Source of the DNA: Rhodanobacter lindaniclasticus
Lineage (GTDB): Bacteria > Pseudomonadota > Gammaproteobacteria > Xanthomonadales > Rhodanobacteraceae
Reading direction: 5' to 3'
Length of the DNA stretch: 64,000 bases
Assembly (NCBI RefSeq): GCF_004799035.1
Contig: NZ_MWIO01000014.1
Coordinates: forward strand, 124,001 to 188,000
A model generated the notes under the pieces. The model searched no databases. It had not been told where the DNA came from and saw only the letters and a list, made by a program, of their open reading frames with translations. The position numbers and the translations under genes were made by a program. This document shows, one piece after another, positions 8,833 through 62,422 of the stretch (positions are counted from its first letter, which is position 1; every line of letters starts with the position of its first letter).

Positions 8833-8874
8833 ATGATCCAGATCAGTGTGCCACGGTCGCTGCCCACGCAGAAT
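8833..8874 (+). promoter_or_regulatory. FNR/Dnr-type promoter of azurin
   Basis: The near-palindrome ATGAT-CCAG-ATCAG lies at 8833-8846. A -10-like CAGAAT starts at 8869, 29.5 bp from the box centre, the spacing shared by the other boxes here. The predicted transcript would start near 8881, about 30 bases before the azurin ATG. The box is degenerate in its first base. Confidence 0.6.
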
Positions 8875-8910
8875 TCTTCCGATTCCCCATCTTCCCCAAG
8901 GATCGACACC

Positions 8911-9357
8911 ATGCGCAAACTGATTGCCATTGCCCTGCTCGGGCTGCTCTCCACTCCGCTGATGGCCGCCGAGTGCACCACCACCATCGAGGCCAGCGAC
9001 GCGATGCAGTTCAACAAGAAGACCATCACCGTGCCGAGCACCTGCAAGACCTTCAAGGTCACGCTCAAGCACACCGGCAAGCTGCCGGTCACCGCGATGG
9101 GCCACAACTGGGTACTGTCGCACAGCAGCGACGAATCCGGCGTGATCGCCGACGGCATGAAGGCGGGCGCGGCCAACAGCTACGAGAAGCCGGGTGACGC
9201 GCGCATCATCGCGCACACCAAGCTGATCGGTGGCGGCGAGAGCGACACCGCCACGATCGACGTGGCCAAGCTCAAGGCCGGCGAACAGTACGCGTACTTC
9301 TGCACCTTCCCCGGCCATGCCGCCCTGATGAAGGGCACGCTGAGCCTGGGCAAGTAA
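8911..9357 (+). CDS. azu: Azurin
   Basis: A periplasmic type I blue-copper electron carrier, often an electron donor to nitrite or NO reductases. The 148-residue precursor has a signal peptide ending MAA (cleavage before ECTTT). The copper ligands are His65 (MGHNW), Cys131, His136 and Met140 ([14 protein letters not shown]), and the disulfide pair is Cys22-Cys45. It is a single-gene unit with an FNR-type promoter upstream and a terminator at 9376-9409. Given the cNOR-like operon at 35949, it is a reasonable soluble electron donor for that complex; this is inference. Confidence 0.96.
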
Positions 9358-9375
9358 GCTTTTGCCGCAACGGCA

Positions 9376-9409
9376 GCGCGCCCGGCCGAGATGGCCGGGT
9401 GCGCTTTTT
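9376..9409 (+). terminator. Rho-independent terminator of azurin
   Basis: The hairpin CCCGGCC (9381-9387), loop GAGAT, GGCCGGG (9393-9399) is extended by GCGC on both sides with one mismatch and followed by TTTTT at 9405-9409. It separates azurin from the globin gene. Confidence 0.88.
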
Positions 9410-9446
9410 CCGTGCCACGCGTCCGTTCCGCGAAGCCGATCCCGAG

Positions 9447-9854: not shown

Positions 9855-9896
9855 TCGATCCGGGATTCGGAAGAGCCGCGCAAAAGCGACACCGCC

Positions 9897-9963: not shown

Positions 9964-10029
9964 GCGCGATGCTTTCCGTTACGTAACGAAGAGCAATCGC
10001 ACACAGGGTGCGCTCCTGCAAAAGCCCGA

Positions 10030-10530
10030 TCAGCCGAGCGCTTTCAGTGCCGCCGCGTAATTCGGCTCGTCGCCGATCTCGCCCACCAGTTCCGTGTGAA
10101 GCACCTTGTCGTGCGCGTCGAGCACCACCACCGCGCGTGCGGCGAGCCCGGCCAGCGGGCCGTCGGCGATCGCCACGCCGTAATCGGCGAGGAATTGGCG
10201 GCCGCGCATCATCGACAGGTTGACCACCTGGTCCAGCCCTTCCGCGCCGCAGAAACGCTTCTGCGCAAACGGCAGGTCGGCGGAGATGCACAGCACCACG
10301 GTGTTGTCGAGCTTGCCTGCAGCCTCGTTGAAGTGGCGCACCGAGGCCGCGCAGGTCGGCGTGTCGACGCTGGGGAAGATGTTGAGCACCTTGCGCTTGC
10401 CGGCGAAACGCGACAGCCCGGCGTCGGAAAGGTCGCCCGCCACCAGCGAAAACGCCGGTGCGACCGAGCCGACCGTGGGGAGCTTGCCGTCGACGTGAAC
10501 CGGCGTGCCGTGGAGGGTGACTGTGGACAT
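10030..10530 (-). CDS. tpx: Thiol peroxidase
   Basis: A peroxiredoxin that reduces lipid and other hydroperoxides with thioredoxin as reductant. The 166-residue sequence has the peroxidatic Cys60 in SVDTPTC and the resolving Cys94 in KRFCGAEG, spaced as in E. coli Tpx. The start is supported by AGGAG eight bases upstream. It lies 25 bp downstream of the CopD-like gene on the same strand, so both are probably co-transcribed from the FNR-type promoter at 11025-11066. Confidence 0.95.
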
Positions 10531-10555: not shown

Positions 10556-10993
10556 CTACAAGTAGAACATGGTCTTGGCCAGGAACACGATGCCGACCAT
10601 CAGCGCCAGCACGATGCGGTGGGTGTACTTGAACCGGCAGACATCCATCTTCCCGTGGCGCATCGCCCACATCGCGTTGACGAACACGCCCAGCACGCCG
10701 AACGCGAGTACCACCTTGAGCAGCAGCCAGTTGCCGAAACGCGAGCCGACGCAGGCAAAACCATCGCAGCGGATGTCGAACAGCATGAAGCCGCTGGCGA
10801 ACAGCAATATCACCACCACCGGCATGTAGCGCCGCACCCGTGCCATCACCGCCTGTTCGATGCGCTGCATGGTGATGATGTCGAAGTGCTTGTGCAGCGA
10901 CTCCACCACGATGACCTCGAACGCCACCGCGCCGACGAACACGATGGCGCAGGCCAAGTGCAGCAGGACGATCCACGGGTACCAGGCAAGCAT
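10556..10993 (-). CDS. CopD-like four-helix membrane protein
   Basis: A 145-residue integral membrane protein with four predicted TM helices and histidines near helix ends (VLLHLAC, HKHFD, MRHGKMD, YTHRIV), as in CopD/cytochrome b561-like small membrane proteins that bind heme or copper. The exact function is not known to me. I chose the ATG at 10993 because the hydrophobic N-terminus begins there ([13 protein letters not shown]); an upstream in-frame ATG at 11029 would overlap the predicted -10 of its promoter. It forms an apparent operon with tpx. Confidence 0.7.
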
Positions 10994-11024: not shown

Positions 11025-11066
11025 AGCATCCGCCTCTGCAGCAGTGCCGGCCATGACCTGCATCAA
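11025..11066 (-). promoter_or_regulatory. FNR/Dnr-type promoter of the CopD-like gene and tpx
   Basis: On the minus strand the box reads TTGAT-GCAG-GTCAT (11066 to 11053). A -10-like GATGCT (11030 to 11025) starts 29.5 bp from its centre. The predicted start near 11018 is 25 bases before the ATG at 10993. Confidence 0.65.
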
Positions 11067-11132: not shown

Positions 11133-11174
11133 TTGACCTGCATCAGGGCCGCCGCCGGGCGTCACCGCGAGCAT
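11133..11174 (+). promoter_or_regulatory. FNR/Dnr-type promoter of the cysteine-synthase-like gene
   Basis: TTGAC-CTGC-ATCAG lies at 11133-11146, with GAGCAT at 11169-11174 at the common 29.5-bp distance. The predicted transcript starts near 11181, so an ATG at 11173 cannot be the start codon and the GTG at 11236 is favoured. Confidence 0.68.
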
Positions 11175-11235: not shown

Positions 11236-12354
11236 GTGAACAGTGTCGTCCCCCTCATCCAGCCGTTGCGCCACGCCGGGCGGCGCTGGGTCCACGAAGC
11301 GCTCGAAAGCCTGGCGCAGGAGGCCGCACGCTCGGCCGACACGCACCTGCTGAAACTCAATTTCCCCGGCTTTCACGGCATCGACTTCTATTTCAAGGAC
11401 GAGGCCAGCCACCCCAGCGGCAGCCTCAAGCACCGGCTGGCGCGTTCGCTGTACCTGTACGCGTTGTGCAACGGCCGGCTCGGCCCGGACCAGACCGTGG
11501 TCGATGCCTCCTCCGGCAGCACGGCGATCTCCGAAGCCTGGTTCGCGCGCCTGCTCGGCCTGCGCTTCATCGCGGTGATGCCGGCCTGCACGGCGCCGGG
11601 GAAAATCCGCGACGTGCAGGTGCTGGGCGGCGAGGTCGACCTGGTGGACGATCCCGCCCAGGTACATGCGCGCGCCGCCGAGCACGCGGCGCGCGGCGCC
11701 TGCCACCTGGACCAGTTCGGCCTGGCCGAGCGCGCCACCGACTGGCGCGGCAACAACAACATCGCCGAGTCGATCATCGGCCAGCTCGCCCGCGAACGCT
11801 CGCCCGAGCCGCACTGGATCGTCTGCGGCGCAGGCACCGGCGGCACCTCGGCCACGATCGGCCGCTATCTGCGTTATCGCCGCCTGCACACGCGGCTGTG
11901 CATCGCCGACCCCGCCGGCAGCGGTTTCATCCGGGGCTGGCAATCCAGCGATCGCGCCGCGGTGGCCAGCCAGCCCACCCTGATCGAAGGCATCGGCCGG
12001 CCGCGCGTCGAACCGGGCTTCGTGTTCGAGGTGGTGGACCAGGCGATCGGCGTGCCGGACGAGGCCTCCATCGCCGGTGCATGGCTGCTGGGCGAATTGT
12101 TCGGACACCGCTACGGCGGCTCCTCGGGCACCAATTTCGTGGCCTGCCTGAACCTGGCCGCCACGATGCGCGCCGAAGGCCAGCGCGGCAGCATCGTCAG
12201 CCTGCTGTGCGATCGCGGCGAACGCTACGCCGAAACCCTGTTCGATCCGCACTGGTTGACCGCGCACGGCATCGACCGCTCGCGCTGCGACGCGTCGCTG
12301 CGGCACAGCATCGAGACCGGCTGCGCGCCGATGCCCAGGGCGCCGGCGGGATAG
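11236..12354 (+). CDS. PLP-dependent cysteine synthase/cystathionine beta-synthase family enzyme
   Basis: A fold-type II PLP enzyme related to cysteine synthase. The likely Schiff-base lysine is Lys65 in PSGSLKHRL, the substrate loop is SSGSTAIS, and the phosphate-binding loop is GAGTGGTSA. The 372-residue length exceeds CysK (about 310), with an extended C-terminal part rich in charged residues. I chose GTG 11236 (GAGG 6 nt upstream) over ATG 11173 because the latter overlaps the predicted -10 element. The reaction cannot be fixed from sequence: cysteine synthesis, cysteine desulfuration or a related beta-replacement are possible. It is followed 36 bp later by another FNR-type promoter. Confidence 0.8.
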   Translation: MNSVVPLIQPLRHAGRRWVHEALESLAQEAARSADTHLLKLNFPGFHGIDFYFKDEASHPSGSLKHRLARSLYLYALCNGRLGPDQTVVDASSGSTAISEAWFARLLGLRFIAVMPACTAPGKIRDVQVLGGEVDLVDDPAQVHARAAEHAARGACHLDQFGLAERATDWRGNNNIAESIIGQLARERSPEPHWIVCGAGTGGTSATIGRYLRYRRLHTRLCIADPAGSGFIRGWQSSDRAAVASQPTLIEGIGRPRVEPGFVFEVVDQAIGVPDEASIAGAWLLGELFGHRYGGSSGTNFVACLNLAATMRAEGQRGSIVSLLCDRGERYAETLFDPHWLTAHGIDRSRCDASLRHSIETGCAPMPRAPAG

Positions 12355-12390: not shown

Positions 12391-12432
12391 TTGACCATGG
12401 TCAACATGCGCCACGCCCGGCCAGCCCATGCT
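12391..12432 (+). promoter_or_regulatory. FNR/Dnr-type promoter of the SDR-Usp-ATPase operon
   Basis: The perfect-arm palindrome TTGAC-CATG-GTCAA is at 12391-12404, with CATGCT at 12427-12432 at the common 29.5-bp distance. The predicted start is near 12439, leaving a 23-base leader to the ATG at 12462. Confidence 0.72.
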
Positions 12433-13723: not shown

Positions 13724-16255
<2,532 letters not shown>

Positions 16256-24823: not shown

Positions 24824-26239
24824 ATGCAAATCACTTTTCTCGGCGCCGCCGGCGAAGTCACCGGCTCATGCTTCCTGATCGAGACCTCCAAGGTCCGCTT
24901 CCTGGTCGACTGCGGCATGTTCCAGGGTGGACGCGAAGCCGCCCAGCGCAACCGGCAACCGTTCGGGTTCGAACCGTCGGCGCTCGACTTCGTGCTGCTG
25001 ACCCACGCGCATATCGACCACAGCGGCCTGTTGCCGAAACTGACCCGCGCCGGTTTCCGCGGCGCGATCCACGCCACCGCCGCCACCGCCGACCTGCTGC
25101 AGGTGATGCTGCCCGACAGCGCGCACATCCAGGAAACGGAGGCGCTGCGCGCGCAGCGTGGCGCCCGCGGCTCGCGCGAGGCGCAGGCCGCGGCCACGCC
25201 GCTGTACACCCTGCGCGATGCCGACGCCTGCCTGCGCCAGGTGCGGCCCCACGGCTACGGGCGCGAGTTGCGCCCGCACGCGGACATCCGCTGCCGCTTC
25301 CGCGACGCCGGCCACATCCTGGGCTCGGCGATCATCGAGGTGTGGGTCAGCGAGGGCGAGCGGACCACCAAGCTGGTGTTCAGCGGCGATCTCGGCCAAC
25401 CGGGGCGCGCGATCCTGCGCGACCCGACGCCAATTGCCGAAGCGGACCTGCTGTTCATCGAATCGACCTACGGCAACCGCCTGCACAAGGATCTTGCCGC
25501 CACCCAGGACGAACTGATCGGCGTGGTAGAGCGCACCCTGGCCCGCGGCAACGTGATCGTGCCGGCCTTCGCGGTGGGACGCACCCAGGAAGTGCTGTAT
25601 CACCTGCATCGGCTGAGCTGCGAAGGCAGGCTGCGCAACCTGCGCATCTTCGTCGATTCGCCGATGGCCACCGCCGCCACCCGGATCACCCGACAGCACC
25701 TGGACCTGTTCGACGACAACGCCACCCGCCTCGCCGACTGGCATGCGCTGGGCGAGGATCTGCCGTATCTCAACTTCACCGCCAGCGTGGAGGAATCCAT
25801 CGCGCTGAACCAGATCCGCTCCGGCGCCATCATCATCTCCGCCAGCGGCATGTGCACCGCCGGCCGCATCAAGCACCACCTGCGGCACAACCTCGGCCGG
25901 CCTGAATGCAGCGTGCTAATCACCGGCTTCCAGGCCGAGGGCACGCTGGGCCGGCGGCTGGTGGACGGGGCCAGCCAGGTGCGCATCTTCGGCGAGGAGA
26001 TCCCGGTGCGCGCCTCGATCCGTACCGTCGGCGGACTGTCCGCGCATGCCGACCGGGACGCGCTGCTGGCCTGGGCCGCCGGCTTCGCGCGCGCGCCGGC
26101 GCAGACCTTCGTGGTGCATGGCGAGGAAACGGCGGCCCAGGCGCTGGCCGACGGGCTGCGTGCGCGCGGCGGCTGGAAGGTGACCGTTCCCGCGGCGGGC
26201 CAGCAGGTGCAATGGCACGACAGCGGAGTCCCGGCATGA
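24824..26239 (+). CDS. Metallo-beta-lactamase/beta-CASP ribonuclease, first copy
   Basis: A 471-residue cytoplasmic MBL-fold nuclease of the beta-CASP (CPSF73/Ysh1-like) type, expected to cut RNA. The zinc motif HAHIDH is at residues 61-66; the later ligands are in DAGHILGSA and FSGDLG, and the beta-CASP region contains ESTYGNR, PAFAVGRTQEVLYHL, SPMA and SASGMCTAGRIKHHL, ending GGLSAHAD and VHGE. It overlaps the LOG gene by ATGA, so the pair is co-translated. A second copy is at 32234; unlike that one it has no FNR-type box. Confidence 0.93.
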   Translation: MQITFLGAAGEVTGSCFLIETSKVRFLVDCGMFQGGREAAQRNRQPFGFEPSALDFVLLTHAHIDHSGLLPKLTRAGFRGAIHATAATADLLQVMLPDSAHIQETEALRAQRGARGSREAQAAATPLYTLRDADACLRQVRPHGYGRELRPHADIRCRFRDAGHILGSAIIEVWVSEGERTTKLVFSGDLGQPGRAILRDPTPIAEADLLFIESTYGNRLHKDLAATQDELIGVVERTLARGNVIVPAFAVGRTQEVLYHLHRLSCEGRLRNLRIFVDSPMATAATRITRQHLDLFDDNATRLADWHALGEDLPYLNFTASVEESIALNQIRSGAIIISASGMCTAGRIKHHLRHNLGRPECSVLITGFQAEGTLGRRLVDGASQVRIFGEEIPVRASIRTVGGLSAHADRDALLAWAAGFARAPAQTFVVHGEETAAQALADGLRARGGWKVTVPAAGQQVQWHDSGVPA

Positions 26240-30661: not shown

Positions 30662-32083
30662 TTAAGGACCCGGTGCGGCGCGCGGGAAGGGCCCCGGGCG
30701 CGACACCTGCGGCAACGCGATCGCCGCCACCGCGCGGTCGCGTCCCCCGCGCTTGGCGTCGTAGAGCGCGGAGTCGGCGCGCCGGATCAGATCCTCCGCG
30801 ACATCGCCGGCGACCGTCTGCGCCATGCCGATGCTGACCGTCACCCTGCAATGCGGCCACGCGAAACCGCGGAATGCGTCGAGCAGGCGCGTCGCCACCT
30901 CACTGGCGCCGCTGATGTCGGTACCCGGCAACAGCAGCACGAACTCCTCGCCGCCGTAGCGTGCAGCCATGTCCGCCGGGCGCAACGCTGCGCGCAGCAG
31001 GTGGCCGGTGATGCGCAGCACCTGGTCGCCGGCCAGGTGACCGAACTCGTCGTTGAAGGTCTTGAAGTGGTCCAGGTCGAACATCAGCAGCGAGAACATC
31101 GTGTCGTGCTCGCGCTGCCCGCGCAGCAGGCCGGCGAGTGCCTCGTCGAACGCGCGCCGGTTGGGCAGCCCGGTGAGGATGTCGGTGCCGGCATCGTTGC
31201 GCAACACGGTGCTCTCGCGGCGCTGGCGTTCCAGCTTGTCGAACAGGCTGGCTACCCACCACACCAGCCCGGCCACCGCGCCGCCGCTGAACAACGCCAC
31301 GAACACGAAGGCCAGCGTCTCGGGGAGGCCCAGCCAGGACTGCAGCAACTCGAACACGAACGCGAACACCGCCGACAGCAGCAAGGCCGGCAGCAGCAGC
31401 CGCCGCGCCAGGGCACCGCCCAGCGTATCCGCGGTGGCCACGCGGGTCAGCCCGAGCGTGGGCGAAGCGCACAGCCAGCCGAGCGTAGTCAACAGCACCA
31501 ACAACGCGGAGTGCAGCGGCATGCGCCCGAACGGCATGGTGCCCTTGCCGGCCAGCGCGATGCCATAGGAGGCGAGCCCGGTCATCGCGATCGCCAACGC
31601 GCCCAGGGCCAGCGCGTCGCGCACACGCGGCCAGCGTGGCGCCGGCAGCAGGCCCAGCGCACCGAGCAGCACGAAGCCTGCCGCAACCGGTTCGGCCATG
31701 CGCCCGGAGTCGCGAGCCGACAGCTCGCCAAGCAGGCGATCGATACGCAAGTCGACCAGCCACAGATACTCCGCCAGAGTCGCCGCGCCGAGCACCAGCA
31801 CGCCCAGCGACAGCCAGCGGGCGAGGCCCGACCACGACGGCGCCGGATGATGGCTGAGCAGCAGCGAGCCGCCGGACAGCACGAATCCGGCCGCCGCATT
31901 CGCGGTCATCGCCGGCTGTCCCGGCCACATCGTGGTCAGCGGCGAACGCTGCAACCACCAGCCGGCCAGCACGATCAGCGCGGCCCCGCAGACCAGCAGC
32001 GCAGATGCACGCGAGAAGCTCAGGAACCCCCGCACGACAGCGAGATCGTGATGGAACGGCACGGTGAACATCGTCACCCCCAT
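30662..32083 (-). CDS. Diguanylate cyclase with membrane sensor region
   Basis: A 473-residue GGDEF protein that makes cyclic di-GMP. About eight hydrophobic segments occupy residues 15-300 and form a membrane sensor of no family I can name. The C-terminal domain has the active-site motif GGEEF and an inhibitory-site RPAD five residues before it, so product feedback is expected. Two starts are possible, ATG 32083 and ATG 32071 (the latter with GGGGGTG upstream). The FNR-type box at 32160-32173 lies between this gene and the RNase gene and could also affect it. Confidence 0.88.
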   Translation of the reverse strand: MGVTMFTVPFHHDLAVVRGFLSFSRASALLVCGAALIVLAGWWLQRSPLTTMWPGQPAMTANAAAGFVLSGGSLLLSHHPAPSWSGLARWLSLGVLVLGAATLAEYLWLVDLRIDRLLGELSARDSGRMAEPVAAGFVLLGALGLLPAPRWPRVRDALALGALAIAMTGLASYGIALAGKGTMPFGRMPLHSALLVLLTTLGWLCASPTLGLTRVATADTLGGALARRLLLPALLLSAVFAFVFELLQSWLGLPETLAFVFVALFSGGAVAGLVWWVASLFDKLERQRRESTVLRNDAGTDILTGLPNRRAFDEALAGLLRGQREHDTMFSLLMFDLDHFKTFNDEFGHLAGDQVLRITGHLLRAALRPADMAARYGGEEFVLLLPGTDISGASEVATRLLDAFRGFAWPHCRVTVSIGMAQTVAGDVAEDLIRRADSALYDAKRGGRDRAVAAIALPQVSRPGPFPRAAPGP

Positions 32084-32159: not shown

Positions 32160-32201
32160 TTGACGACGATCAATCCGACGACTGGCCTGGCCTGCCAGAG
32201 T
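32160..32201 (+). promoter_or_regulatory. FNR/Dnr-type promoter of the second beta-CASP RNase
   Basis: TTGAC-GACG-ATCAA is at 32160-32173 with CAGAGT at 32196-32201, 29.5 bp from the centre. The predicted start near 32208 is 26 bases before the ATG at 32234. Confidence 0.72.
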
Positions 32202-32233: not shown

Positions 32234-33625
32234 ATGCTCATTTACAGCTGCCATGGTGCCGCCAAGCAGGTCACCGGCTCTTGCCACCTGATTACCTGCA
32301 ACGACCGCCGCGTGCTGATCGACTGCGGCCTGTTCCAGGGCAGCGAGGAGGTCGAGCGGGCCAACGCCGAACCGTTCGGCTTCGACCCGGCCGGCATCGA
32401 CGTGCTGCTGCTCACCCACGCGCACCTGGACCATTGCGGCAGGATTCCGCTGCTGGTGCGCCGGGGTTTTCGCGGCCGCATCCTGACCACCGCCGCCACC
32501 CGCGAACTGGCGCGGGTGGTGATGCTCGATTCCGCCGGCCTGCAGGAAGAGGACGCGCGCCGCGCGCAACGCAACAACCGACGCGGCGAGACGGTGGCGC
32601 CGCCGCTGTACACCCTGGACGACGCGCTGCACGCGCTGGACTTCTTCGGCCCGGATGTCGGCTACGACGAAACCGTGCAGGTCACCGATGGCATCCGCGC
32701 CCGCTTTCTCGATGCCGGCCACATCCTCGGCTCGGCCTCGATCCTGCTGCAGATCGACGACGGCGAGAAGCAACGGCGCATGCTGTTTTCCGGCGACCTC
32801 GGCAACCCGGGTCGCCCGCTGCTGCGCGACCCGACGCCCGCCCCACCAGCCGACTACGTGGTGATGGAAAGCACCTACGGCGACCGTCCGCACCGCTCGG
32901 TGCCGGACTCGGTGGACGAGATGTACCAGGCCATCCGCGACACGGTGAACCGGCGCGGCAACGTGGTGATCCCCACCTTTGCGCTGGAGCGCACCCAGGA
33001 AATTCTCTACTACCTGCACCGCGGCATCGCCGACGGCGCGATCCCGCCGCACGTGCGGGTGTTCCTGGATTCGCCGATGGCGATCTCCGCCACCGAAATC
33101 TTCCGTCGCCACCCGGAATGCTTCGACGACGGCTTCCTCGCCGAGCTGCGGCACGGCGACCCGTTCGCCATGCCCGGCCTGCACTTCACCCGCGAGACGG
33201 CCGAGTCGATGGCGATCAACAACGTCGACGGCGGCGCGATCATCCTGGCCGGCTCGGGCATGTGCAACGGTGGTCGCGTGCGCCACCACCTCAAGCACAA
33301 CCTGTGGCGCGAGCGCTGCAGCGTGGTGTTCGTCGGCTATGCGGCGGAAGGCACGCTGGCGCGGCGGATCATCGACGGGGCGCCCAGCGTGCGCGTGTTC
33401 AACGAGGAGATCCCGGTACGCGCGCAGGTGTGGACCATCAACGGCTTCTCCGCGCACGCCGACCGGCCCTCGCTGCTGGCCTGGCTGGGCGACGCGCCGC
33501 GGCGCAAGGTGTTCCTGGTGCACGGCGAATACGGCCGCGGCATGCGCGTGATGCAGGAGGTGCTGGCCGGGCGCGGCATCGCCTGCCAGCTGCCTGGCCT
33601 GCACGAGCCGATCAAGCTCGACTGA
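32234..33625 (+). CDS. Metallo-beta-lactamase/beta-CASP ribonuclease, second copy
   Basis: A 463-residue beta-CASP MBL protein, paralogous over its whole length to the one at 24824. The zinc motif HAHLDH is at residues 62-67; other motifs are DAGHILGSA, FSGDLGNPG, ESTYGDR, PTFALERTQEILYYL, GSGMCNGGRVRHHL, NGFSAHAD and VHGE. It probably processes or degrades RNA. Unlike its paralogue it stands alone and has a strong FNR-type promoter, so it may be the low-oxygen version. It is 148 bp upstream of the porin-like gene, which has its own FNR-type box. Confidence 0.93.
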   Translation: MLIYSCHGAAKQVTGSCHLITCNDRRVLIDCGLFQGSEEVERANAEPFGFDPAGIDVLLLTHAHLDHCGRIPLLVRRGFRGRILTTAATRELARVVMLDSAGLQEEDARRAQRNNRRGETVAPPLYTLDDALHALDFFGPDVGYDETVQVTDGIRARFLDAGHILGSASILLQIDDGEKQRRMLFSGDLGNPGRPLLRDPTPAPPADYVVMESTYGDRPHRSVPDSVDEMYQAIRDTVNRRGNVVIPTFALERTQEILYYLHRGIADGAIPPHVRVFLDSPMAISATEIFRRHPECFDDGFLAELRHGDPFAMPGLHFTRETAESMAINNVDGGAIILAGSGMCNGGRVRHHLKHNLWRERCSVVFVGYAAEGTLARRIIDGAPSVRVFNEEIPVRAQVWTINGFSAHADRPSLLAWLGDAPRRKVFLVHGEYGRGMRVMQEVLAGRGIACQLPGLHEPIKLD

Positions 33626-33672: not shown

Positions 33673-33714
33673 TTGACGCTGGTCAAAGAGACGCTGGCCG
33701 CAGGTGCGCAGACT
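33673..33714 (+). promoter_or_regulatory. FNR/Dnr-type promoter of the heme-porin gene pair
   Basis: The perfect-arm palindrome TTGAC-GCTG-GTCAA is at 33673-33686 with CAGACT at 33709-33714 at the common 29.5-bp distance. The predicted start near 33721 leaves a leader of about 53 bases. Confidence 0.72.
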
Positions 33715-35948: not shown

Positions 35949-36200
35949 ATGTCGCAGCGGATTTCGGATCTGACGCTTTCGGTGCTGGCCTGCGTGGCGG
36001 CGTTCGGGCTGTCCTGGCCCTTCTGGCGTGATTTCGAGTACTGGCCCGAATCGCATGTCGCCTGGTGGATCTATTTCGCCGTGGGCTTCGTGCTGGCGGT
36101 GTGGGTGTTCTACCTGTTCATCGGCAGCCTGCGCATCCTGTTCCTGCACGACACCCAGGCCACGCCGCCTTCCGTCGACGACAAGGGGGGCCAGCCATGA
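35949..36200 (+). CDS. Small two-helix membrane protein leading the cNOR-like operon
   Basis: An 83-residue protein with two predicted TM helices (about 8-25 and 38-60) and a short polar tail. It is not recognised. GGGGAGAG seven bases upstream supports the start, and it overlaps the cytochrome gene by ATGA, so it is co-translated. A small assembly or accessory subunit of the oxidoreductase is a fair guess, similar to the small subunits seen in heme-copper oxidases. Confidence 0.75.
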   Translation: MSQRISDLTLSVLACVAAFGLSWPFWRDFEYWPESHVAWWIYFAVGFVLAVWVFYLFIGSLRILFLHDTQATPPSVDDKGGQP

Positions 36201-38990: not shown

Positions 38991-40340
38991 CTAGCGCATC
39001 GCGAAAAACTCCCGGTGGAAATGCCGCTCCACCGGAAATCCCTGCCCGGCCAGATCGCGCTTCAATGCGTCGCCGAAGCCTGTCGGCCCGCAGAACCAGA
39101 TACTCGCCTCGCGCCATTCGGGCACGGCGGCCCGTATGCGCTCGCCCGTCAGGTAGCCGTCGCGCGCGTCGATCAGCACGTGCAGCCGCACGTTGGCGGA
39201 GCGGGCGTCACCCGCCAGCCGGTCGAGTGCTTCCTCATCGACATCCGCGGTGCTGTGGAAGAGATCGATCTTCTGGCCTTCGGGCCAATCCCGATCCTCT
39301 TTCTGCCACGCCATGTGCTTCATGCGCCCGATGAAAGGGGTGATGCCGATGCCGCCGCCGACCCAGATCTGGCGCGGGCGGCCGTCGTCGAACGTGAAAC
39401 ACCCATACGGACCCTCGACCTTCACGGCCTGCTCCACGCGCAGCCTCTCGTGCAGGCGATGCGTATGGTCGCCCAGATCCTTGACCACGAAGGTGATCCT
39501 GGGGATTTCCTTCCGCCAGCCGGAGGCAATGGTGTAGGGGTGCGCGCCATCGGCGGGGTCCGCGGTGACGAAGGCGAACTGGCCCGGCTTGTGGCCCGGC
39601 CACCCCTGCACCTCGGTTTCGATTTCGAGCGCATCCACCCCGTCGAAATGGTGCAACAAGGTGATCCTCCCCTCCACCTGCGAGCGCGTGCCCACCCGGC
39701 GCAACAGCACCACGATGGCCGCCCAGCTGCCGCAGGCGAGCAACACCGCAGTCAGCCAGCCGAGCGGCGTCGCCCAGTAGCCGAACTTCAACAGCACGAC
39801 CGCATGGAAGACCAGGGCAAGCCAGCCGCCGGCAAGCAGGCGATGCGTCTTGTAGAACCAGTGGTACGGAAAACGCCGGATCAGGGCCAGCACGATCAGC
39901 ACGACGACGGCGTAGAAAACCCATTCGCCCACGCTCTCCGCGGCGCCGCGCTGGCTCGACAGCAGGGACGCCACCGGGTTGTCGGACTTGCCCCGCATGC
40001 CACGCGCCGGGCGTTCCAGCCAGCCCCAACCCACCGCCCATTTCGGCGCCTGCGCCCACAGCCAATGGATGATGGCAACGACCAGCGCGGCGATGCCGAG
40101 CCATTTGTGCATGCGGTACATCTTGTCGAGGCCGCCCAGCCACTGCTCGGGCCATCGCGGCCGCAGCGCCAGGACCATCGCCAGGCTCATGCACCCGATC
40201 GCCACGAAACCCGTCAGTTGCACCATCGCATCGCGCAGGCCGAAGAAGGTGCCCGAGCGGAACATGGTGGGCTCGACGACGAGCCACGGCAGGACCAGGA
40301 AGGCGAGCGCCCCCCAGAATGCACGCTTGAGGTTACGCAT
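38991..40340 (-). CDS. Ferric-reductase-like membrane flavoprotein (NAD(P)H oxidoreductase)
   Basis: A 449-residue protein with an N-terminal six-TM ferric-reductase-like domain and a C-terminal FAD/NAD(P)-binding module. Paired histidines in helices (MHKWLG, IIHWLWA, KTHRLLAGG, VFHAVV) suit two hemes. HPYTIAS binds FAD, VGGGIGITPFIGR the nucleotide phosphate, and WFCGPTGFGDALK closes the module. It would move electrons from NAD(P)H across the membrane to a periplasmic acceptor, perhaps metal or oxygen species. It lies 102 bp downstream of the cytochrome b561 gene on the same strand and may share its FNR-type promoter. Confidence 0.9.
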   Translation of the reverse strand: MRNLKRAFWGALAFLVLPWLVVEPTMFRSGTFFGLRDAMVQLTGFVAIGCMSLAMVLALRPRWPEQWLGGLDKMYRMHKWLGIAALVVAIIHWLWAQAPKWAVGWGWLERPARGMRGKSDNPVASLLSSQRGAAESVGEWVFYAVVVLIVLALIRRFPYHWFYKTHRLLAGGWLALVFHAVVLLKFGYWATPLGWLTAVLLACGSWAAIVVLLRRVGTRSQVEGRITLLHHFDGVDALEIETEVQGWPGHKPGQFAFVTADPADGAHPYTIASGWRKEIPRITFVVKDLGDHTHRLHERLRVEQAVKVEGPYGCFTFDDGRPRQIWVGGGIGITPFIGRMKHMAWQKEDRDWPEGQKIDLFHSTADVDEEALDRLAGDARSANVRLHVLIDARDGYLTGERIRAAVPEWREASIWFCGPTGFGDALKRDLAGQGFPVERHFHREFFAMR

Positions 40341-40442: not shown

Positions 40443-41006
40443 TCACGAGGCCCGCCCGCCCCGTCCTGGCAGCATGCGTCGCAAGGTGTCGTCGCGATTC
40501 ACGTAGTGGTGCACCAGCGCGGCCGCCGCGTGCAGGCCGACCAGGTAGTAGCCGGCCGTGCCGATCGTCTCGTGGAGCTCTTCCATCGATTCGGCGAACG
40601 CCTTGTCCGGCCCCACCAGCGCCGGCAACTCCAGGCCGAAGAACGGCACCGGCTTGCCCTCGGCGCTGAGCACCAGCCAGCCGAGCAGCGGCATCGCGAT
40701 CAGGAAGGCGTACAGCGCCAGGTGCATCAGCGCGGCCAGGCGCGCCTGCCACACCGGCGGTGCCGGCCGGATCGGCGGGATCGGGCCCGACACCAGGCGG
40801 ATCGCCAGCCGCACGAAGACCAGCGCGAACACGCTCAGGCCCAGCATGAAGTGCCAGGTTTTCAACCCTTCGCGCAGGTCGCTGCCGCGCGGGTAGAACT
40901 CGCGCAGCTCGATGCAGGCGTACACGGCAACCAGCAACAGCAGCATCAGCCAGTGCATGCCGATCGACAGCGAGCCGTAGCGGTCAGTGGTGTTTTTCCA
41001 GTTCAC
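40443..41006 (-). CDS. cybB: Cytochrome b561 family protein
   Basis: A 187-residue, four-helix cytochrome b561. It opens RYGSLSIGMHWLMLLLLVAVY, and histidines for two hemes are visible in MHW, KTWHFMLG, LMHLALY and ELHETIGTAG/LHAAAALVHHY. Members of this family oxidise quinol, some with superoxide as acceptor. The start is a GTG at 41006, chosen because GGAG lies 7 nt upstream and the family N-terminus NWKNTTDRYG follows directly. An FNR-type promoter is at 41058-41099. Confidence 0.92.
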   Translation of the reverse strand: MNWKNTTDRYGSLSIGMHWLMLLLLVAVYACIELREFYPRGSDLREGLKTWHFMLGLSVFALVFVRLAIRLVSGPIPPIRPAPPVWQARLAALMHLALYAFLIAMPLLGWLVLSAEGKPVPFFGLELPALVGPDKAFAESMEELHETIGTAGYYLVGLHAAAALVHHYVNRDDTLRRMLPGRGGRAS

Positions 41007-41057
41007 GGCAATCTCCGCAGGTGGTGTCTCGGCGGCCTCGATCCGGCCCATGTCGGC

Positions 41058-41099
41058 AGCCTGCGACGAACGGTGCCAGCGTGATTTGATCCCCGTCAA
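41058..41099 (-). promoter_or_regulatory. FNR/Dnr-type promoter of the cytochrome b561 gene
   Basis: On the minus strand TTGAC-GGGG-ATCAA (41099 to 41086) and CAGGCT (41063 to 41058) are 29.5 bp apart from centre to first base. In the plus direction no -10-like hexamer occurs at that distance, so the site is assigned to the minus strand. Confidence 0.68.
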
Positions 41100-41159
41100 A
41101 TAGGCGCGAACAGCGCCACGGCAGCGGCCGATTGCCGCATGCCTGCGCGCCTGTCCAAA

Positions 41160-41201
41160 TTGACCGCGGTCAACTCGGACCCACACGACCCGGCGTAGAA
41201 C
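41160..41201 (+). promoter_or_regulatory. FNR/Dnr-type promoter of the GNAT-Usp pair
   Basis: The perfect-arm palindrome TTGAC-CGCG-GTCAA at 41160-41173 is followed by TAGAAC at 41196-41201 at the common distance. It lies back to back with the minus-strand box at 41086-41099, 60 bp away. Confidence 0.7.
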
Positions 41202-41277
41202 TGATCCGGCAAGGCTGCGCCGAGTGGCCGTCCATCCGGCACGAATGAGCATCACGCTGCACCATCGGGAACCGCCC

Positions 41278-43517: not shown

Positions 43518-43559
43518 TTGACCTGCATCAAGAGCGATGCGGCAGCCGTCAAAGAGCAT
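43518..43559 (+). promoter_or_regulatory. FNR/Dnr-type promoter of norZ
   Basis: TTGAC-CTGC-ATCAA at 43518-43531 is close to the Dnr/FNR consensus, and GAGCAT at 43554-43559 starts 29.5 bp from its centre. The predicted transcript starts near 43566, just upstream of the AGGGAG (43573-43578) of norZ. Confidence 0.78.
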
Positions 43560-43585: not shown

Positions 43586-45868
43586 ATGAGCCGTACTCGA
43601 AAACTCTGGCTGGGCCTGGCGGCCCTGCTGATAGCCTCGTTTGGCGTGCTGTTGTGGGTGGGCGACCAGGTCCACCAGTACGCGCCACCATTGCCGCAGG
43701 CGGTGGTCACCAGCGGTGACGAAACGCTGTTCACCGGCAACGACATCGAGCTGGGCAAGCAGGTCTGGCAGCGCATCGGCGGCCAGCAACTGGGCTCGAT
43801 CTGGGGCCACGGTGCGCTGCTCGCACCGGACTGGAGCGCCGACTGGCTGCACCGCGAAGGCGTCGCCATGCTGGAGCTGCTGGCGCGCGACGAAGGCGCC
43901 GGCTCCTACGCCGAACTCGACGCGCCGCAACAGGCCGCACTGCGCTCGCGCGTGCAGCGCGAGCTGCGCACGAACACGTGGGACCCGGCCAAGGGCACCA
44001 TCTACGTCTCCCCGCTGCGCGCGCAGGCGATGCTGGTGGTCGGTGCGCATTACATGAGCCTGTTCAGCAACGACCCGGCCACCGCCAAGCTGCGCGAGAC
44101 CTACGCGATGCGCGACAACACCATCGCCGAGCTGGACCAGCGCCGCGCGGTCACCGCGTTCTTCTGGTGGGCCAGCTGGGCCACCGCGGCCGAACGGCCG
44201 GGGAGCGCCATCAGCTACACGCAGAACTGGCCGCATGACACGCTGGCCGGCAACACGCCGACCTCGGCCAACTTCCTGTGGTCGGTGTTCAGCGTGCTGT
44301 TCCTGATCCTCGGCATCGGCCTGCTCGGCTGGCACCACGCGCGCCAGGCAAGCCACGAGCCGCTGCCGCCGATCCCCGCGCGCGATCCGCTCACCGAGTT
44401 GAAGCCCACGCCGTCGATGAAGGCCACCGCCAAGTATTTCTGGACGGTGATCGGCCTGTTCCTGGTGCAGATCCTGCTCGGCGCCACCACCGCGCACTAC
44501 CAGGTGGAAGGCCAGCAGGCCTACGGTTTCGCGCTGGCGAATTACCTGCCCTATGCCCTCACCCGCACCTGGCATACCGAACTGGCGGTGTTGTGGATCG
44601 CCACCGCGTGGCTGGCCACCGGCCTGTACATCGCGCCGCTGATCTCCGGCCACGAGCCGAAGTACCAGCGGCTCGGGGTGAACTTCCTGTGGGTGTGTTT
44701 GCTGGTCATCGTGGTCGGCTCGTTTGCCGGCCAGTGGATGGCGGTGATGGACAAGATGGACCTGTCGAAGAACTTCTGGTTCGGCCACCAGGGCTGGGAA
44801 TACGTCGACCTCGGCCGCTTCTGGCAGATCTTCCTGTTCATCGGCCTGATGCTGTGGCTGTTCCTGGTCGGCCGCGCGCTGTGGCCGGCGATGCGCGGCG
44901 GCAAGGAAGGTGCCTCCATCGTGGGCCTGCTGTTTCTCTCCACCGTGGCGATCGGCCTGCTCTACGGCGCCGGCCTGATGTGGGGCGAACACACCCACAT
45001 CGCGATGGTGGAGTACTGGCGCTGGTGGGTGGTGCACCTGTGGGTGGAGGGCTTCTTCGAGGTCTTCGCCACCGCGGTGATCAGCTACCTGTTCGTGCGC
45101 CTCGGCCTGTTGCGCGTGGGCACGGCGACCACCAGCGTGCTGTTCGCCACCATCGTGTTCATGGCCGGCGGCGTGCTGGGCACGCTGCACCACCTGTACT
45201 TCAGCGGCACCACCACCGCGGTGATTGCGCTGGGCGCCAGCTTCTCGGCGCTGGAAGTGGTACCGCTGGCGCTGATCGGGCTGGAAGCCTGGGACACCTG
45301 GAAGAAGCAGCACGCCGCGCCGTGGATGGCGCGCTACCGCTGGCCGATCATGTTCTTCGTGGCGGTGAGCTTCTGGAACCTGGTCGGCGCCGGCCTGCTC
45401 GGTTTCCTGGTCAACACGCCGATCGCGCTGTACTTCATGCAGGGCCTCAACCTTACCGCCGCGCACGGCCACACCGCGCTGTTCGGCGTGTACGGCATGC
45501 TCGGCATGGGCCTGATGCTGTTCTGCCTGCGCGGCATCAAGCCGCAGGCCGAGTGGCGCGAGGGCTGGCTGAAGGGCTCGTTCTGGACGCTCAACCTCGG
45601 CCTCGGCCTGATGGCCGTGCTGACCCTGCTGCCGCTGGGCATCCTGCAACTGAAGGCCGTGCTGGAACACGGCTACTGGTTCGCCCGCTCGGCCGAGTTC
45701 ATGGACCGCCCGCTGATCCACATGCTGGTATGGATGCGCGTGCCCGGCGACACCGTGTTCGCCATCGGCGCCATGCTGATCGCCGGCTTCGTCGCCTCGC
45801 TGTGGCTGTGGCCGAAACGACAGGTCGCCGCCACGCCGCTGCCGGACGCAGCGTCCGAGAGCGCATGA
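43586..45868 (+). CDS. norZ: Quinol-dependent nitric oxide reductase (qNOR), second copy
   Basis: A 760-residue qNOR closer than the first copy to the classical NorZ pattern, for instance YTQNWPHDTLAGN in the periplasmic domain. Active-site motifs are [11 protein letters not shown] near residue 483, GTLHHLYFSG near 534, ALEVVP and AHGHTALFG near 626. It reduces NO to N2O with quinol electrons in the inner membrane. The start has AGGGAG 7 nt upstream and the gene has the best FNR-type promoter of the window. It is followed by a perfect hairpin and three tightly linked genes. Confidence 0.96.
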   Translation: MSRTRKLWLGLAALLIASFGVLLWVGDQVHQYAPPLPQAVVTSGDETLFTGNDIELGKQVWQRIGGQQLGSIWGHGALLAPDWSADWLHREGVAMLELLARDEGAGSYAELDAPQQAALRSRVQRELRTNTWDPAKGTIYVSPLRAQAMLVVGAHYMSLFSNDPATAKLRETYAMRDNTIAELDQRRAVTAFFWWASWATAAERPGSAISYTQNWPHDTLAGNTPTSANFLWSVFSVLFLILGIGLLGWHHARQASHEPLPPIPARDPLTELKPTPSMKATAKYFWTVIGLFLVQILLGATTAHYQVEGQQAYGFALANYLPYALTRTWHTELAVLWIATAWLATGLYIAPLISGHEPKYQRLGVNFLWVCLLVIVVGSFAGQWMAVMDKMDLSKNFWFGHQGWEYVDLGRFWQIFLFIGLMLWLFLVGRALWPAMRGGKEGASIVGLLFLSTVAIGLLYGAGLMWGEHTHIAMVEYWRWWVVHLWVEGFFEVFATAVISYLFVRLGLLRVGTATTSVLFATIVFMAGGVLGTLHHLYFSGTTTAVIALGASFSALEVVPLALIGLEAWDTWKKQHAAPWMARYRWPIMFFVAVSFWNLVGAGLLGFLVNTPIALYFMQGLNLTAAHGHTALFGVYGMLGMGLMLFCLRGIKPQAEWREGWLKGSFWTLNLGLGLMAVLTLLPLGILQLKAVLEHGYWFARSAEFMDRPLIHMLVWMRVPGDTVFAIGAMLIAGFVASLWLWPKRQVAATPLPDAASESA

Positions 45869-49214: not shown

Positions 49215-49949
49215 ATGACATCAGATCTCGATCTTGACGAGCTCAGGCGCAGCTGCGGCTACTGCGCCATCCACGATTTCCGCCTGCCGGCCGGCCTCAG
49301 CGCGGACGACCTGCACACGCTCAACGCCACCGCGCGCGACATGCTGCCGCTCGATCGCGGGCAGACGCTGTTCCCGCAGGGCCGCAAGTTCGGCGCGTTG
49401 TACGTGGTGCGTGCCGGCGCGCTGAAGACCTTCGTGGAAGGTTCCGAAGGCGACGTGCAGATCCTCGGTTTCCACCTGCCCGGCGACATCATGGGCATCG
49501 GCGGCCTCATCAACGAACACTACCCGTGCACCGCCCAGACGCTGGAGCGCTCCAGCGTGTGCGAACTGCGCTACGCGCAGTTGCAGGAGGCCACCGCCAA
49601 CCTGCCGGCGCTGAACCACCAGCTGATGCGGGTGATCAGCGGCGCGCTGGTCGACGAGCAGAGCCACCTGGTGCTGATGGGCAAGCAGCAGGCGCAGCGG
49701 CGGCTGGCATTCTTCATCCGGCGCATGTCCGACCGCTATGCGCGATTGTCACGCGACCCGCTGGCGCTGATCCTGCCGATGTCGCGCGAAGACATCGCCA
49801 ACTATCTGGGGCTGGCGCTGGAGACGGTCAGCCGGCTGTTCGGCAGGATGGAATCGGCCGGCGTCCTGTCGGTGAATCGCAAATCGGTGCGGATCCTGCG
49901 TCGCGACCTGCTCGACGAGCTGTGCGGCGGCGACATCGACATGGCGTAG
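49215..49949 (+). CDS. CRP/FNR family transcription regulator
   Basis: A 244-residue FNR-type regulator: cyclic-nucleotide-like sensor domain (LPLDRGQTLFPQG...GFHLPGDIMGIGGLINEHYPCTAQTLERSSVCELRY) and a C-terminal winged helix MSREDIANYLGLALETVSRLFGRMESAGVL. The recognition helix E-T-V-S-R is like that of E. coli FNR, fitting TTGAT-type boxes. Cysteines at 14, 17 and 116 match three of the four FNR cluster ligands, but the third N-terminal one is absent and an extra Cys105 is present. ATG 49215 was chosen; a TTG at 49188 would add nine residues. It is a good candidate to control the boxes in this window. Confidence 0.93.
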   Translation: MTSDLDLDELRRSCGYCAIHDFRLPAGLSADDLHTLNATARDMLPLDRGQTLFPQGRKFGALYVVRAGALKTFVEGSEGDVQILGFHLPGDIMGIGGLINEHYPCTAQTLERSSVCELRYAQLQEATANLPALNHQLMRVISGALVDEQSHLVLMGKQQAQRRLAFFIRRMSDRYARLSRDPLALILPMSREDIANYLGLALETVSRLFGRMESAGVLSVNRKSVRILRRDLLDELCGGDIDMA

Positions 49950-50005: not shown

Positions 50006-50047
50006 TTGACCACGGTCAAAACCGCGCGGCGCGATCGGCCAGAGCAT
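50006..50047 (+). promoter_or_regulatory. FNR/Dnr-type promoter of the Usp gene
   Basis: The perfect-arm palindrome TTGAC-CACG-GTCAA lies at 50006-50019, with GAGCAT at 50042-50047 at the common 29.5-bp distance. The ATG at 50046 is part of this -10 and cannot be the start codon of the gene. Confidence 0.75.
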
Positions 50048-50087: not shown

Positions 50088-50888
50088 GTGCTGGACATCA
50101 TCGTCAACGTCGGCGGGACCTCGGACAACCCGTCGTGGCCGGGCGCGGCGCTGGCGCTGGCCAGGCGCCACGGCGCCTTCGTCACCGGGCTGCAGGTGGT
50201 CGCGGTGTGTCCTTCGCTGATGGCGATACCCGACGTGATCGACGTGCTGGCCGCCGAGGAACAGGCGGCGCTGGCTCGACGCGACTGGTGGCTGCAGCAG
50301 TGCCGAAGCGCGGGCGTCGAGGGCGAATGGGAGGTGATGCGCGGTATCTCCGGGCAGGCGCTGGGCAAGCGCTCGCGACTGGCCGATTTCATGATCGGCG
50401 AACTGAAGGTCAGCGATCCGGATGCCGCGCCCGGTGTCGACGATGTCACGCGCGCGCTGTTCGCCCGCGCCTCGCCGATGCTGCTGATGCCCGACATCGG
50501 CGGCGACACGCTGCAGGCCCGGCGCATCGTCATCGCATGGAACGGCTCCGGCGAAGCCGCGCAGGCGGTGAAGGCTGCGCTGCCGCTGCTGGCGCAGGCG
50601 TCCGTCGTGCGGGTGCTCGATGGCGAGCGTGGCGGCCTGCCCGGCATCAGTCCGCCGCCGCTGCCGCTGCGCGGCTGGTTCGCGCGCCACGGCATCGAGG
50701 CGCAATGGCAGCCGTTCCCGGCCGAACACGACGAAGGCCCCGCGCTGCTGGCCGCCGCCCGGGCGTTCGACGCCGACCTGCTGGTGATGGGCGCCTGGGG
50801 CCGCTCGCGCCTCAGCGAGCTGACCATGGGAGGCGTCACGCGCTGGATGCTCAGGAACGCGAGCCTGCCGCTGTTTCTCGCGCACTGA
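50088..50888 (+). CDS. Universal stress protein family, tandem-domain form (second)
   Basis: A 266-residue two-domain Usp-like protein, similar to the product of 41878. The N-terminal half begins VLDIIVNVGGTSDNPSW; the C-terminal half has RRIVIAWNGSGEAAQAVKAALP and DLLVMGAWGRSRLSELTMGGVTRWMLRNASLPLFL, a nucleotide-binding-like signature. The GTG at 50088 is chosen because GGGAG ends 5 nt before it and the in-frame ATG at 50046 lies in the -10 element. It probably supports anaerobic survival; no enzymatic role is evident. Confidence 0.88.
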   Translation: MLDIIVNVGGTSDNPSWPGAALALARRHGAFVTGLQVVAVCPSLMAIPDVIDVLAAEEQAALARRDWWLQQCRSAGVEGEWEVMRGISGQALGKRSRLADFMIGELKVSDPDAAPGVDDVTRALFARASPMLLMPDIGGDTLQARRIVIAWNGSGEAAQAVKAALPLLAQASVVRVLDGERGGLPGISPPPLPLRGWFARHGIEAQWQPFPAEHDEGPALLAAARAFDADLLVMGAWGRSRLSELTMGGVTRWMLRNASLPLFLAH

Positions 50889-53719: not shown

Positions 53720-53761
53720 TTGATCGCCGTCAAATGACCGGCACGGGAAACATTCCAGAAT
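53720..53761 (+). promoter_or_regulatory. FNR/Dnr-type promoter of the phosphoketolase operon
   Basis: TTGAT-CGCC-GTCAA at 53720-53733 is followed by CAGAAT at 53756-53761 at the common 29.5-bp distance. The predicted start near 53768 leaves a leader of about 115 bases before the ATG at 53884, in which nothing else is recognisable. Confidence 0.75.
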
Positions 53762-61306: not shown

Positions 61307-61772
61307 GAGGTTGTGCTTTCTTGCTCTTGCTTCCCCCGCTTGCGGGGGAAGGTACCCGCAGGGCGGAAGGGGGGCTTTTCGCTTTGCAAAAGCCAAGATC
61401 AAGATCGCCTCCATCCGCCTTCGGCACCTTCCCCCGCTTCGCGAGGGAAGGAAAAACCGGGTGCGACGCCGCCGTCGAATCTTTCACAGGCTCTGAGAGG
61501 TTGTGCTTTCTTGCTCTTGCTTCCCCCGCGCAGCGGGGGAAGGTGCCCGAAGGGCGGAAGGGGGAGCTTTTCGCTTTGCAAAAGCCAAGATCAAGAGCGC
61601 CCCCATCCGCCTTCGGCACCCCGGATCAAGTCCGGGGCAGGCTCTTCCCCCGCTTCGCGAGGGAAGGAAAAACCGGGTGCGACGCCGCCGTCGAATTTTT
61701 CACAGGCTCTGAGAGGTTGTGCTTTCTTGCTCTTGCTTCCCCCGCTTCGCGAGGGAAGGAAAAACCAGGTGC
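61301..61772. repeat. Tandem intergenic repeat, two and a part copies
   Basis: Units starting CTCTGAGAGGTTGTGC begin at 61301, 61491 and 61707. Units 1 (190 bp) and 2 (216 bp) share TTCCCCCGC...GCGGGGGAAGG hairpins, a CGCTTTGCAAAAGCC palindrome and the same end. Unit 2 carries an extra CCCCGGATCAAGTCCGGGG palindrome of about 26 bp. Unit 3 is shortened: its first 40 bases join directly to the unit end. The first unit starts in the last codons of the TonB receptor gene (CTC-TGA), so the first repeat includes its stop codon. The 523-bp gap holds no credible gene. Confidence 0.85.
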
Positions 61773-61829
61773 ACCGCGTCGCGCACGCGTTGCGGGCGGC
61801 GCTTCACGGGCCACCCGCAACGCGCCGCC

Positions 61830-62336
61830 TCACGGCTCGTCGTGCATCACGTGTTCGACCGGCACCGGCTTGTCCCAGCCGGGATCGTCGAAATACTGCG
61901 GGTAATGCGCGATCGCCGCGCGCATGTCGGCCACCGCGGACACCTTCGCCGGATCGGCCTTCAACGCCTGCGCGGCCGTGAGCAGCGGCACCAGGATGCC
62001 GTGCAGCGCGGCATCGGGCTCGGCCGACAGCTTGCAGTTGGCGAACATGTAGGTCACCGCACTTTCCACCTCGGTGGCGCGGTCGACCGCCATCGGCGCG
62101 CTCATGTGACCCATCTCGTAGTGGGCCAGCTCGGCCACCGCGGTGTGCGCGCGGCGCATGCCCGCGCGCAGCGGGGCATCCGGCGTCCAGCGCTGTGCCG
62201 GCACCTGCGTGGCGGCGCTGGCGGCGTGTGCCGCGTGGCTGTCGTGCTCGGCGTGGGCGTGTTGGGGACCGGCCTGGGCCGCAGTGGCGAGGCCGAGCGC
62301 GCAGGCGCTGGCGAGAAGAATGCGTACAGCTTTCAT
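61830..62336 (-). CDS. Periplasmic protein of unknown function, paralogue of 24195-24764
   Basis: A 168-residue secreted protein: signal peptide to about residue 22 (AAQAG), a His/Ala-rich segment (HAHAEHDSHAAHAA) and a core with QRWTPDAPLRAGMRRAHTAV, ending HYPQYFDDPGWDKPV. The core is homologous to the protein at 24195. The His-rich stretch may bind metal, fitting the nearby copper receptor. The ATG at 62336 has GGAG 10 nt upstream, and an FNR-type box overlaps the end of the preceding RND gene. Not assigned to a named family. Confidence 0.75.
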   Translation of the reverse strand: MKAVRILLASACALGLATAAQAGPQHAHAEHDSHAAHAASAATQVPAQRWTPDAPLRAGMRRAHTAVAELAHYEMGHMSAPMAVDRATEVESAVTYMFANCKLSAEPDAALHGILVPLLTAAQALKADPAKVSAVADMRAAIAHYPQYFDDPGWDKPVPVEHVMHDEP

Positions 62337-62379
62337 GCGGATCACTCCGGCAGGCGGCGCGGACGCCGCGGATGAAGGC

Positions 62380-62422
62380 ATGCTAGCGCGCGGTGCCGGC
62401 GAGCCGGCCTGACCGGGGTCAA
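62380..62422 (-). promoter_or_regulatory. FNR/Dnr-type promoter of the 61830-62336 gene
   Basis: On the minus strand TTGAC-CCCG-GTCAG (62422 to 62409) is followed by TAGCAT (62385 to 62380), one base farther than in the other twelve sites. The box overlaps the stop codon of the RND gene. Confidence 0.55.

Follow-up and report, generated by a model that had tools for sequence, protein, structure and literature searches.

Thirteen probable FNR/Anr-dependent class II promoters in a 64-kb stretch of the Rhodanobacter lindaniclasticus genome

Does a fixed distance between a symmetrical box and a weak hexamer mark a set of activator-dependent promoters in Rhodanobacter lindaniclasticus, and which protein would read it? 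The question is raised by a 64,000-bp stretch of contig NZ_MWIO01000014.1 (C16:124001-188000 in our contig labels; hereafter the window) from a draft genome of 4.06 Mb in 109 contigs. The original prediction placed near-palindromes of the type TTGAY-N4-RTCAA before 13 transcription units in the window and claimed that in 12 of them a -10-like hexamer begins exactly 29.5 bp from the box centre. In class II activation the box lies over the -35 place, the hexamer follows 29.5 bp on and transcription starts near +41.5. We conclude that the 13 sites are very probably class II promoters of an activator of the FNR/Anr type. Promoters of this kind are already known, and the island is a further example of them. 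The sites are listed below with the box, the candidate -10 hexamer, the distance of its first base from the box centre (the register) and the genes that follow, whose labels are Pfam matches.

8833-8874, plus strand: ATGATCCAGATCAG (8/10), -10 CAGAAT at +29.5; before the azurin gene 8911-9357
11025-11066, minus strand: TTGATGCAGGTCAT, -10 GATGCT at +29.5; before CopD-like 10556-10993 and redoxin 10030-10530
11133-11174, plus strand: TTGACCTGCATCAG, -10 GAGCAT at +29.5; before the PLP enzyme gene 11236-12354
12391-12432, plus strand: perfect TTGACCATGGTCAA, -10 CATGCT at +29.5; before SDR (12462), Usp (13249) and P-type ATPase (13724)
32160-32201, plus strand: perfect TTGACGACGATCAA, -10 CAGAGT at +29.5; before the beta-CASP RNase-type gene 32234-33625
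33673-33714, plus strand: perfect TTGACGCTGGTCAA, -10 CAGACT at +29.5; before gene 33774-35165
35818-35859, plus strand: TTGACCTGGATCAG, -10 TATAGT at +29.5; before 35949-36200, cytochrome c 36269-37159 and COX1-family 37159-38847
41058-41099, minus strand: perfect TTGACGGGGATCAA, -10 CAGGCT at +29.5; before cytochrome b561 40443-41006 and ferric reductase-like 38991-40340
41160-41201, plus strand: perfect TTGACCGCGGTCAA, hexamer TAGAAC at +29.5 (41196-41201; T6 absent); before GNAT (41245) and Usp (41878)
43518-43559, plus strand: perfect TTGACCTGCATCAA, -10 GAGCAT at +29.5; before the qNOR-like gene 43586-45868
50006-50047, plus strand: perfect TTGACCACGGTCAA, -10 GAGCAT at +29.5; before the Usp gene 50088-50888
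53720-53761, plus strand: perfect TTGATCGCCGTCAA, -10 CAGAAT at +29.5; before phosphoketolase (53884), PTA-type (56464) and acetate kinase (57398)
62380-62422, minus strand: TTGACCCCGGTCAG, -10 TAGCAT at +30.5; before gene 61830-62336

All 13 near-palindromes are where the original prediction put them, in position and strand. The pattern TTGAYN4RTCAA has ten core positions; a match to at least nine was counted as a site, and the same pattern reversed but not complemented served as control. A mechanical scan of the window returned 16 sites, 12 of them intergenic and four in genes. With the simple gene caller made for this analysis only 5,310 of the 64,000 bases are intergenic, so this share is far beyond chance (binomial 1.4e-10). 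The 12 intergenic sites all belong to the predicted set and have 9 or 10 of the core bases; the thirteenth, at 8833, has 8. Eight sites are perfect, none of them inside a gene. The reversed pattern gave two sites and no perfect one, against 16 and eight.

With the 13 sites aligned on the box, and the hexamer tested for A at its second and T at its sixth base, A2 is present at the 29.5-bp register in 12 sites (column +30.5), T6 in 11 (column +34.5) and both in 11. At every one of 53 other offsets tested the pair occurs in at most two sites. The predicted distance in 12 sites thus stands as regards something like a hexamer, and the minus-strand site at 62409 is one base off as claimed (TAGCAT at +30.5), but A2 and T6 together define the exact register in 11 sites only. 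The other exception, TAGAAC at 41160, is correctly placed and lacks T6. Orthologous promoters of the GNAT gene have the box in 4/4 cases and A...T at 29.5 in 0/4, with TAGAA or TACAA as hexamer; the odd hexamer is therefore a conserved trait. In 30 of 53 box-gene pairs, chosen from the window and its relatives for having A and T at the register, G is the third base of the hexamer. Base counts over the same pairs did not reveal the TTGACA consensus at +6.5 to +13.5, leaving no independent -35 element at the activator position. The left half-site was considered as a -35 element and ruled out, as the gap from TTGACN to the hexamer would be 30 bp.

A genome scan for hits inside and outside genes had been put forward as the test of the original prediction. 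The genome has 34 perfect boxes, against five for the reversed pattern, and 31 lie outside called genes; those inside number 0 of the eight in the window and 3 of the 26 elsewhere. A box followed by A...T at +29.5 occurs 22 times in the proper direction and never with the reversed pattern. Eleven of these 22 fall in the window, namely ten of the predicted sites and a mirror reading of the 32160 box toward the GGDEF gene 30662-32083. Orthologues of the GGDEF gene have the box in 4/4 upstream regions and the mirror hexamer in 0/4, so this reading was dropped from the counts. Without it 10 of 21 matches, about half, sit in 1.6% of the genome (binomial 2.8e-13, a value to be read knowing that the draws are not independent and that genes linked in function cluster in any case). 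Two classical FNR/Anr targets of this genome, hemN and ccoN, likewise have a box with the 29.5-bp register.

The arrangement is conserved in the genus. Across 21 genomes, counting our own, 310 matches to the 29.5-bp pattern stand against 10 to its reverse, and 139 to the stricter form with AGNNT against one. Orthologous upstream regions were taken from stretches of 16 same-genus relatives rather than from whole genomes. Of 42 such regions belonging to the 13 boxed genes, 32 have the box, 25 the box with the register and none the reversed pattern; for unboxed genes of the window (80 regions) box and register were found in 15 and 10, and their reversed counterparts in one and none. Box and register are present together in every orthologous region for the azurin gene (2/2), CopD-like/redoxin (3/3), the SDR-Usp-P-type ATPase unit (3/3), the 35818 unit (4/4), the cytochrome b561 unit (4/4), the qNOR-like gene (2/2) and the Usp gene 50088 (1/1). 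The beta-CASP gene at 32234 has the box in 5/9 and the register in 4/9. Gene 61830-62336, whose own hexamer is displaced, has the 29.5 register in 2/2. For gene 33774 the single upstream region examined, in a partial alignment, has the box with its hexamer at 28.5. The genome scan, the 22 matches against none reversed, the orthologous promoters and the register of hemN and ccoN together support the class II FNR geometry that had been proposed.

We propose that an FNR/Anr-type dimer would bind TTGAYN4RTCAA over the -35 position, where no -35 consensus is seen, and would bring polymerase of the sigma-70 type to the weak -10 element (NANNNT) that begins 29.5 bp from the box centre. Transcription would be expected to start about 41.5 bp from that centre. 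The targets would be azurin, NO reductase-type and other haem-copper enzymes, b561, Usp proteins, P-type ATPase, RNase and phosphoketolase-acetate kinase, plausibly a low-oxygen and nitrosative-stress set. From the box, the target genes and the regulators we infer, besides binding and activation, a response to low oxygen or NO.

NO reductases had been named among the boxed genes. This holds for the qNOR-like gene 43586-45868, a COX1-family protein with a NorB-type N-terminal domain that is followed by SirB and PLP decarboxylase genes, but not for the NorB-type gene 5992-8295 on the minus strand, which has no box. Two of the three COX1-family units in the window lie behind a box; the exact type of the boxed cytochrome c/COX1 pair 36269-38847 is settled by no model. 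The nearest NCBIfam model to the PLP enzyme 11236-12354 is L-cysteine desulfhydrase, below its cut-off, and the boxed genes 33774-35165 and 61830-62336 match neither Pfam nor NCBIfam. The window has two beta-CASP metallo-beta-lactamase RNase-type genes, 24824-26239 and 32234-33625; only the second is boxed.

A candidate reader of the boxes is encoded in the island itself.

49215-49949, plus strand: Crp/FNR-family regulator, 244 aa; Pfam cNMP_binding, HTH_Crp_2 and Crp

The three Pfam models (PF00027, PF13545, PF00325) score above cut-off and describe a cNMP-binding-type domain with a Crp-type helix-turn-helix. The residues of an ExxSR recognition helix read TTGAT. In an alignment with the solved FNR structure 5cvr the helix of 49215-49949 is ETVSR beside ETISR. 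The same alignment shows C14, C17 and C116, with R23 at the position of the third N-terminal cysteine, leaving three of the four cluster cysteines. With 186.6 bits the protein misses the NCBIfam Fnr subfamily cut-off of 228, as does the four-cysteine protein encoded on contig C70 (204.5). The window scan found no box of at least 9/10 upstream of the gene. Neither the gene nor the cysteine loss was mentioned in the original prediction.

The cysteines were compared over 49 chosen rows, four of them cysteine-less proteins of a type encoded on contig C30 (L033 and L035, with the cysteine motif, are among the loci left out). All four are present in 41 of the 45 FNR-type proteins. The third is absent from the window protein and from its counterpart in Rhodanobacter sp. 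67-28 (Q; L039:10001-10732), a metagenome assembly that is the nearest of the named records found: in DNA it is 95.0 to 96.5% identical to three stretches of the window, and the regulators are 95% identical. The other same-genus orthologues have cysteine at this position in 13/13 cases. Between the window and 67-28 the dN/dS of the regulator is 0.19, within the range of 0.03 to 0.92 for 14 neighbouring genes. This, together with the cysteine kept in the other orthologues, suggests a constrained gene that has lost a ligand in one lineage and not an obvious pseudogene. An assembly error in both draft records as the source of the loss is unlikely. Two Massilia FNR-type proteins (L048:2149-2853 and L049:3407-4111) have F in place of the second cluster cysteine. 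In three relatives (G002, G008, G018) the regulator gene lies between the b561 and GNAT genes (L107:739-1437); the corresponding gap in the window, 41006-41245, has two boxes between genes that face each other, and the regulator is about 8 kb away.

Several points weigh against the class II reading or narrow it. The PLP enzyme gene at 11236 has the box in 0/5 orthologous upstream regions, and phosphoketolase has the box in 1/2 and the register in 0/2. The 10/80 orthologues of unboxed genes that have box and register are explained only in part by a different arrangement of units. A link to oxygen through 49215-49949 is doubtful because a cluster cysteine is missing. Elsewhere in the genome the distance can differ from 29.5 bp. 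Nor is exactly 29.5 bp an FNR requirement in general, since one Sphingopyxis Fnr acts from centres at -40.5, -41.5 and -42.5 (PMC7713065; this and the other papers given by PMC number are drawn on in excerpt).

Published regulons show how far the class II reading fits. Sphingopyxis Fnr promoters have TTGAY-N4-RTCAA near -41.5, overlapping the -35 place, and their targets include uspA, ccoN and cytochrome b561, as here; they differ in the range given above, whereas 11 of the 13 sites here share one register and cluster in 54 kb (PMC7713065). The Pseudomonas Anr regulon has the same box type, with azu and hemN, also boxed here, as core targets (PMC6588701). It differs in that the targets here lie close together and the regulator here is without one cluster cysteine; phosphoketolase and universal stress genes were not found in the sections of PMC6588701 examined. 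In Dinoroseobacter, several universal stress protein genes are among those that FnrL activates, and FNR and Dnr share single boxes; this is another bacterial class, and a one-base distinction of register was not found in the sections of the paper examined (PMC5398030).

Which FNR-type protein would read the boxes has more than one candidate answer. Four Crp-family genes of the genome exceed the Pfam cut-off: 49215-49949, C70:13050-13811, C30:16187-16909 and one on C28. There is a real prospect, somewhat short of even, that the C70 protein is the main reader and 49215-49949 a secondary or altered sensor. Its gene lies directly downstream of hemN, it keeps four cysteines, and the promoter of its own hemN-fnr operon has a box with the 29.5 register. 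A close orthologue of 49215-49949 is absent from 5/18 same-genus relatives (G003, G004, G006, G015 and G017; best identity at most 35%), yet three of them, G003, G006 and G017, have 9, 24 and 21 matches at the 29.5 register, so that the protein is not needed in every genome for such promoters. Against a leading part for the C70 protein, G004 has a protein of this type, no close 49215-type protein and only two matches, and 49215-49949 sits in the island under purifying selection with its ETxSR helix retained.

Possible, though on balance unlikely, is that 49215-49949 runs the regulon with altered sensing, having a different cluster or none and so answering to another threshold or signal. For E. 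coli FNR all four cysteines are described as necessary (PMC6828653, PMC5398030). An arginine, or glutamine in 67-28, at a position that is cysteine in the rest of the genus, in a gene whose dN/dS is like that of its neighbours, would fit such a change. D21 or H20 as replacement ligand, or a three-cysteine site, is a guess. Both records are drafts, and the loss is equally compatible with weak or dead sensing and the C70 protein doing the work.

The boxed promoters of the genus are not confined to one spacing. A second island, on contig C30 (C30:1-20000, L082), mostly has the hexamer at 28.5 bp. Gene calls and Pfam matches on ten of its proteins give Usp, Hsp20, CBS/BON, dodecin, ADH, nitroreductase, a cytochrome bd subunit and regulatory proteins, and not a denitrification cluster. 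The regulatory proteins are a histidine kinase with PAS/GAF domains, a response regulator and a Crp/FNR protein that lacks the N-terminal cysteines. A Crp/FNR protein below a two-component system resembles Bradyrhizobium FixK2 (PMC5582078), unlike which the C30 regulator reaches 63.1 of 300 bits for the NCBIfam FixK equivalog and the kinase 116.7 of 850 for FixL, far under the cut-off. The regulator may at most be called FixK/Dnr-like. Eight of the 14 box-gene pairs in this island are at 28.5 and one at 29.5, against none and ten in the window once the mirror reading is left out (Fisher 1.2e-4). In 81 pairs from the regulator regions of relatives three are at 28.5 and 42 at 29.5. C30-type islands in G003, G006 and G017 show both registers, seven at 28.5 and six at 29.5; G006 and G017 are near-identical in the regions compared and not independent. 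Outside this count lie G009 C79 (one at 28.5), G010 C99 (one at 29.5), three out-of-genus stretches (none at 28.5, two at 29.5) and the hemN/fnr-region stretches (three and 11). Genus-wide the 28.5 pattern has 262 matches against 22 reversed, a total left unused as many of the matches listed look like recurring in-gene sequence.

Single genes give the clearest and the least clear cases. The copper nitrite reductase gene nirK (C16:209240, L081:11667-13181), about 21 kb to the right of the window, has a perfect box in the 28.5 register, and 10 of 11 nirK promoters in the genus are at 28.5, the lone 29.5 row being G011; the boxes of two of the eleven rows are only 8/10. The fnr-linked hemN is at 29.5 in 8/8, so that the two genes differ in register (Fisher 1.2e-4). 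There were ten hemN rows: L159, being a second segment of an alignment, was dropped, and an additional hemN copy of G006, with its hexamer at 28.5, does not belong to the eight. Rows for hemN, nirK and ccoN were excluded if identity was below 55%, if the alignment started after residue 30 or if fewer than 150 bases lay upstream. In 16 genus genomes ccoN is at 29.5 in ten and at 28.5 in six; beyond the genus two are at 29.5, two at 28.5 and one is without a box.

Could this single base mark which FNR-family protein, or which threshold, a promoter answers to, making the window and C30 islands separate regulons that share a box? We regard this as unlikely. In its favour are the opposed counts of the two islands, the clean registers of hemN and nirK, and the FixK2-dependent start at +40.5 from the box axis in Bradyrhizobium, which is that expected for a C30-island hexamer at 28.5 (PMC5582078). 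A strict code is weakened by the split of ccoN, by the mixed C30-type islands and by nirK, which keeps to 28.5 in seven genomes that lack the C30-type regulator, itself present in 4/21 genus genomes. Elsewhere, one Sphingopyxis Fnr spans -40.5 to -42.5 (PMC7713065), and in Rhodopseudomonas a FixK box lies at -44.5 (PMC3050613). The mixed cases therefore indicate that the register is kept for some targets and does not simply name the regulator.

Chance or misreading as the source of the sites and their spacing, as a prediction made by eye and a weak, degenerate hexamer might suggest, can be dismissed in view of the mechanical scan, the reversed and offset controls, the intergenic bias and the conservation.

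A literature search joining Rhodanobacter, denitrification, FNR and promoter found nothing, and among the matches listed, judged by title or the start of the abstract, none concerned this regulon or the position or spacing of boxes as a means of separating paralogues.

The probable class II promoters of the window make up a conserved and densely packed group with strict spacing, open to direct mapping. Two parts merit further work, the regulator with three cysteines and the pair of registers. The former, as an FNR relative, offers a natural way to ask what share of the cluster site is needed for sensing oxygen. Boxes of Anr and Dnr are described as indistinguishable (PMC6588701, PMC5398030), and the clean registers of hemN and nirK beside the mixed ccoN make the sharing of identical boxes among Anr/Dnr/FixK-type paralogues testable by one-base changes. 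It is unlikely, though conceivable, that Rhodanobacter uses two registers for its low-oxygen promoters in which the single base is informative, of the FNR-family protein or of an oxygen/NO threshold; were it so, it would help explain how regulators with indistinguishable boxes keep separate targets.

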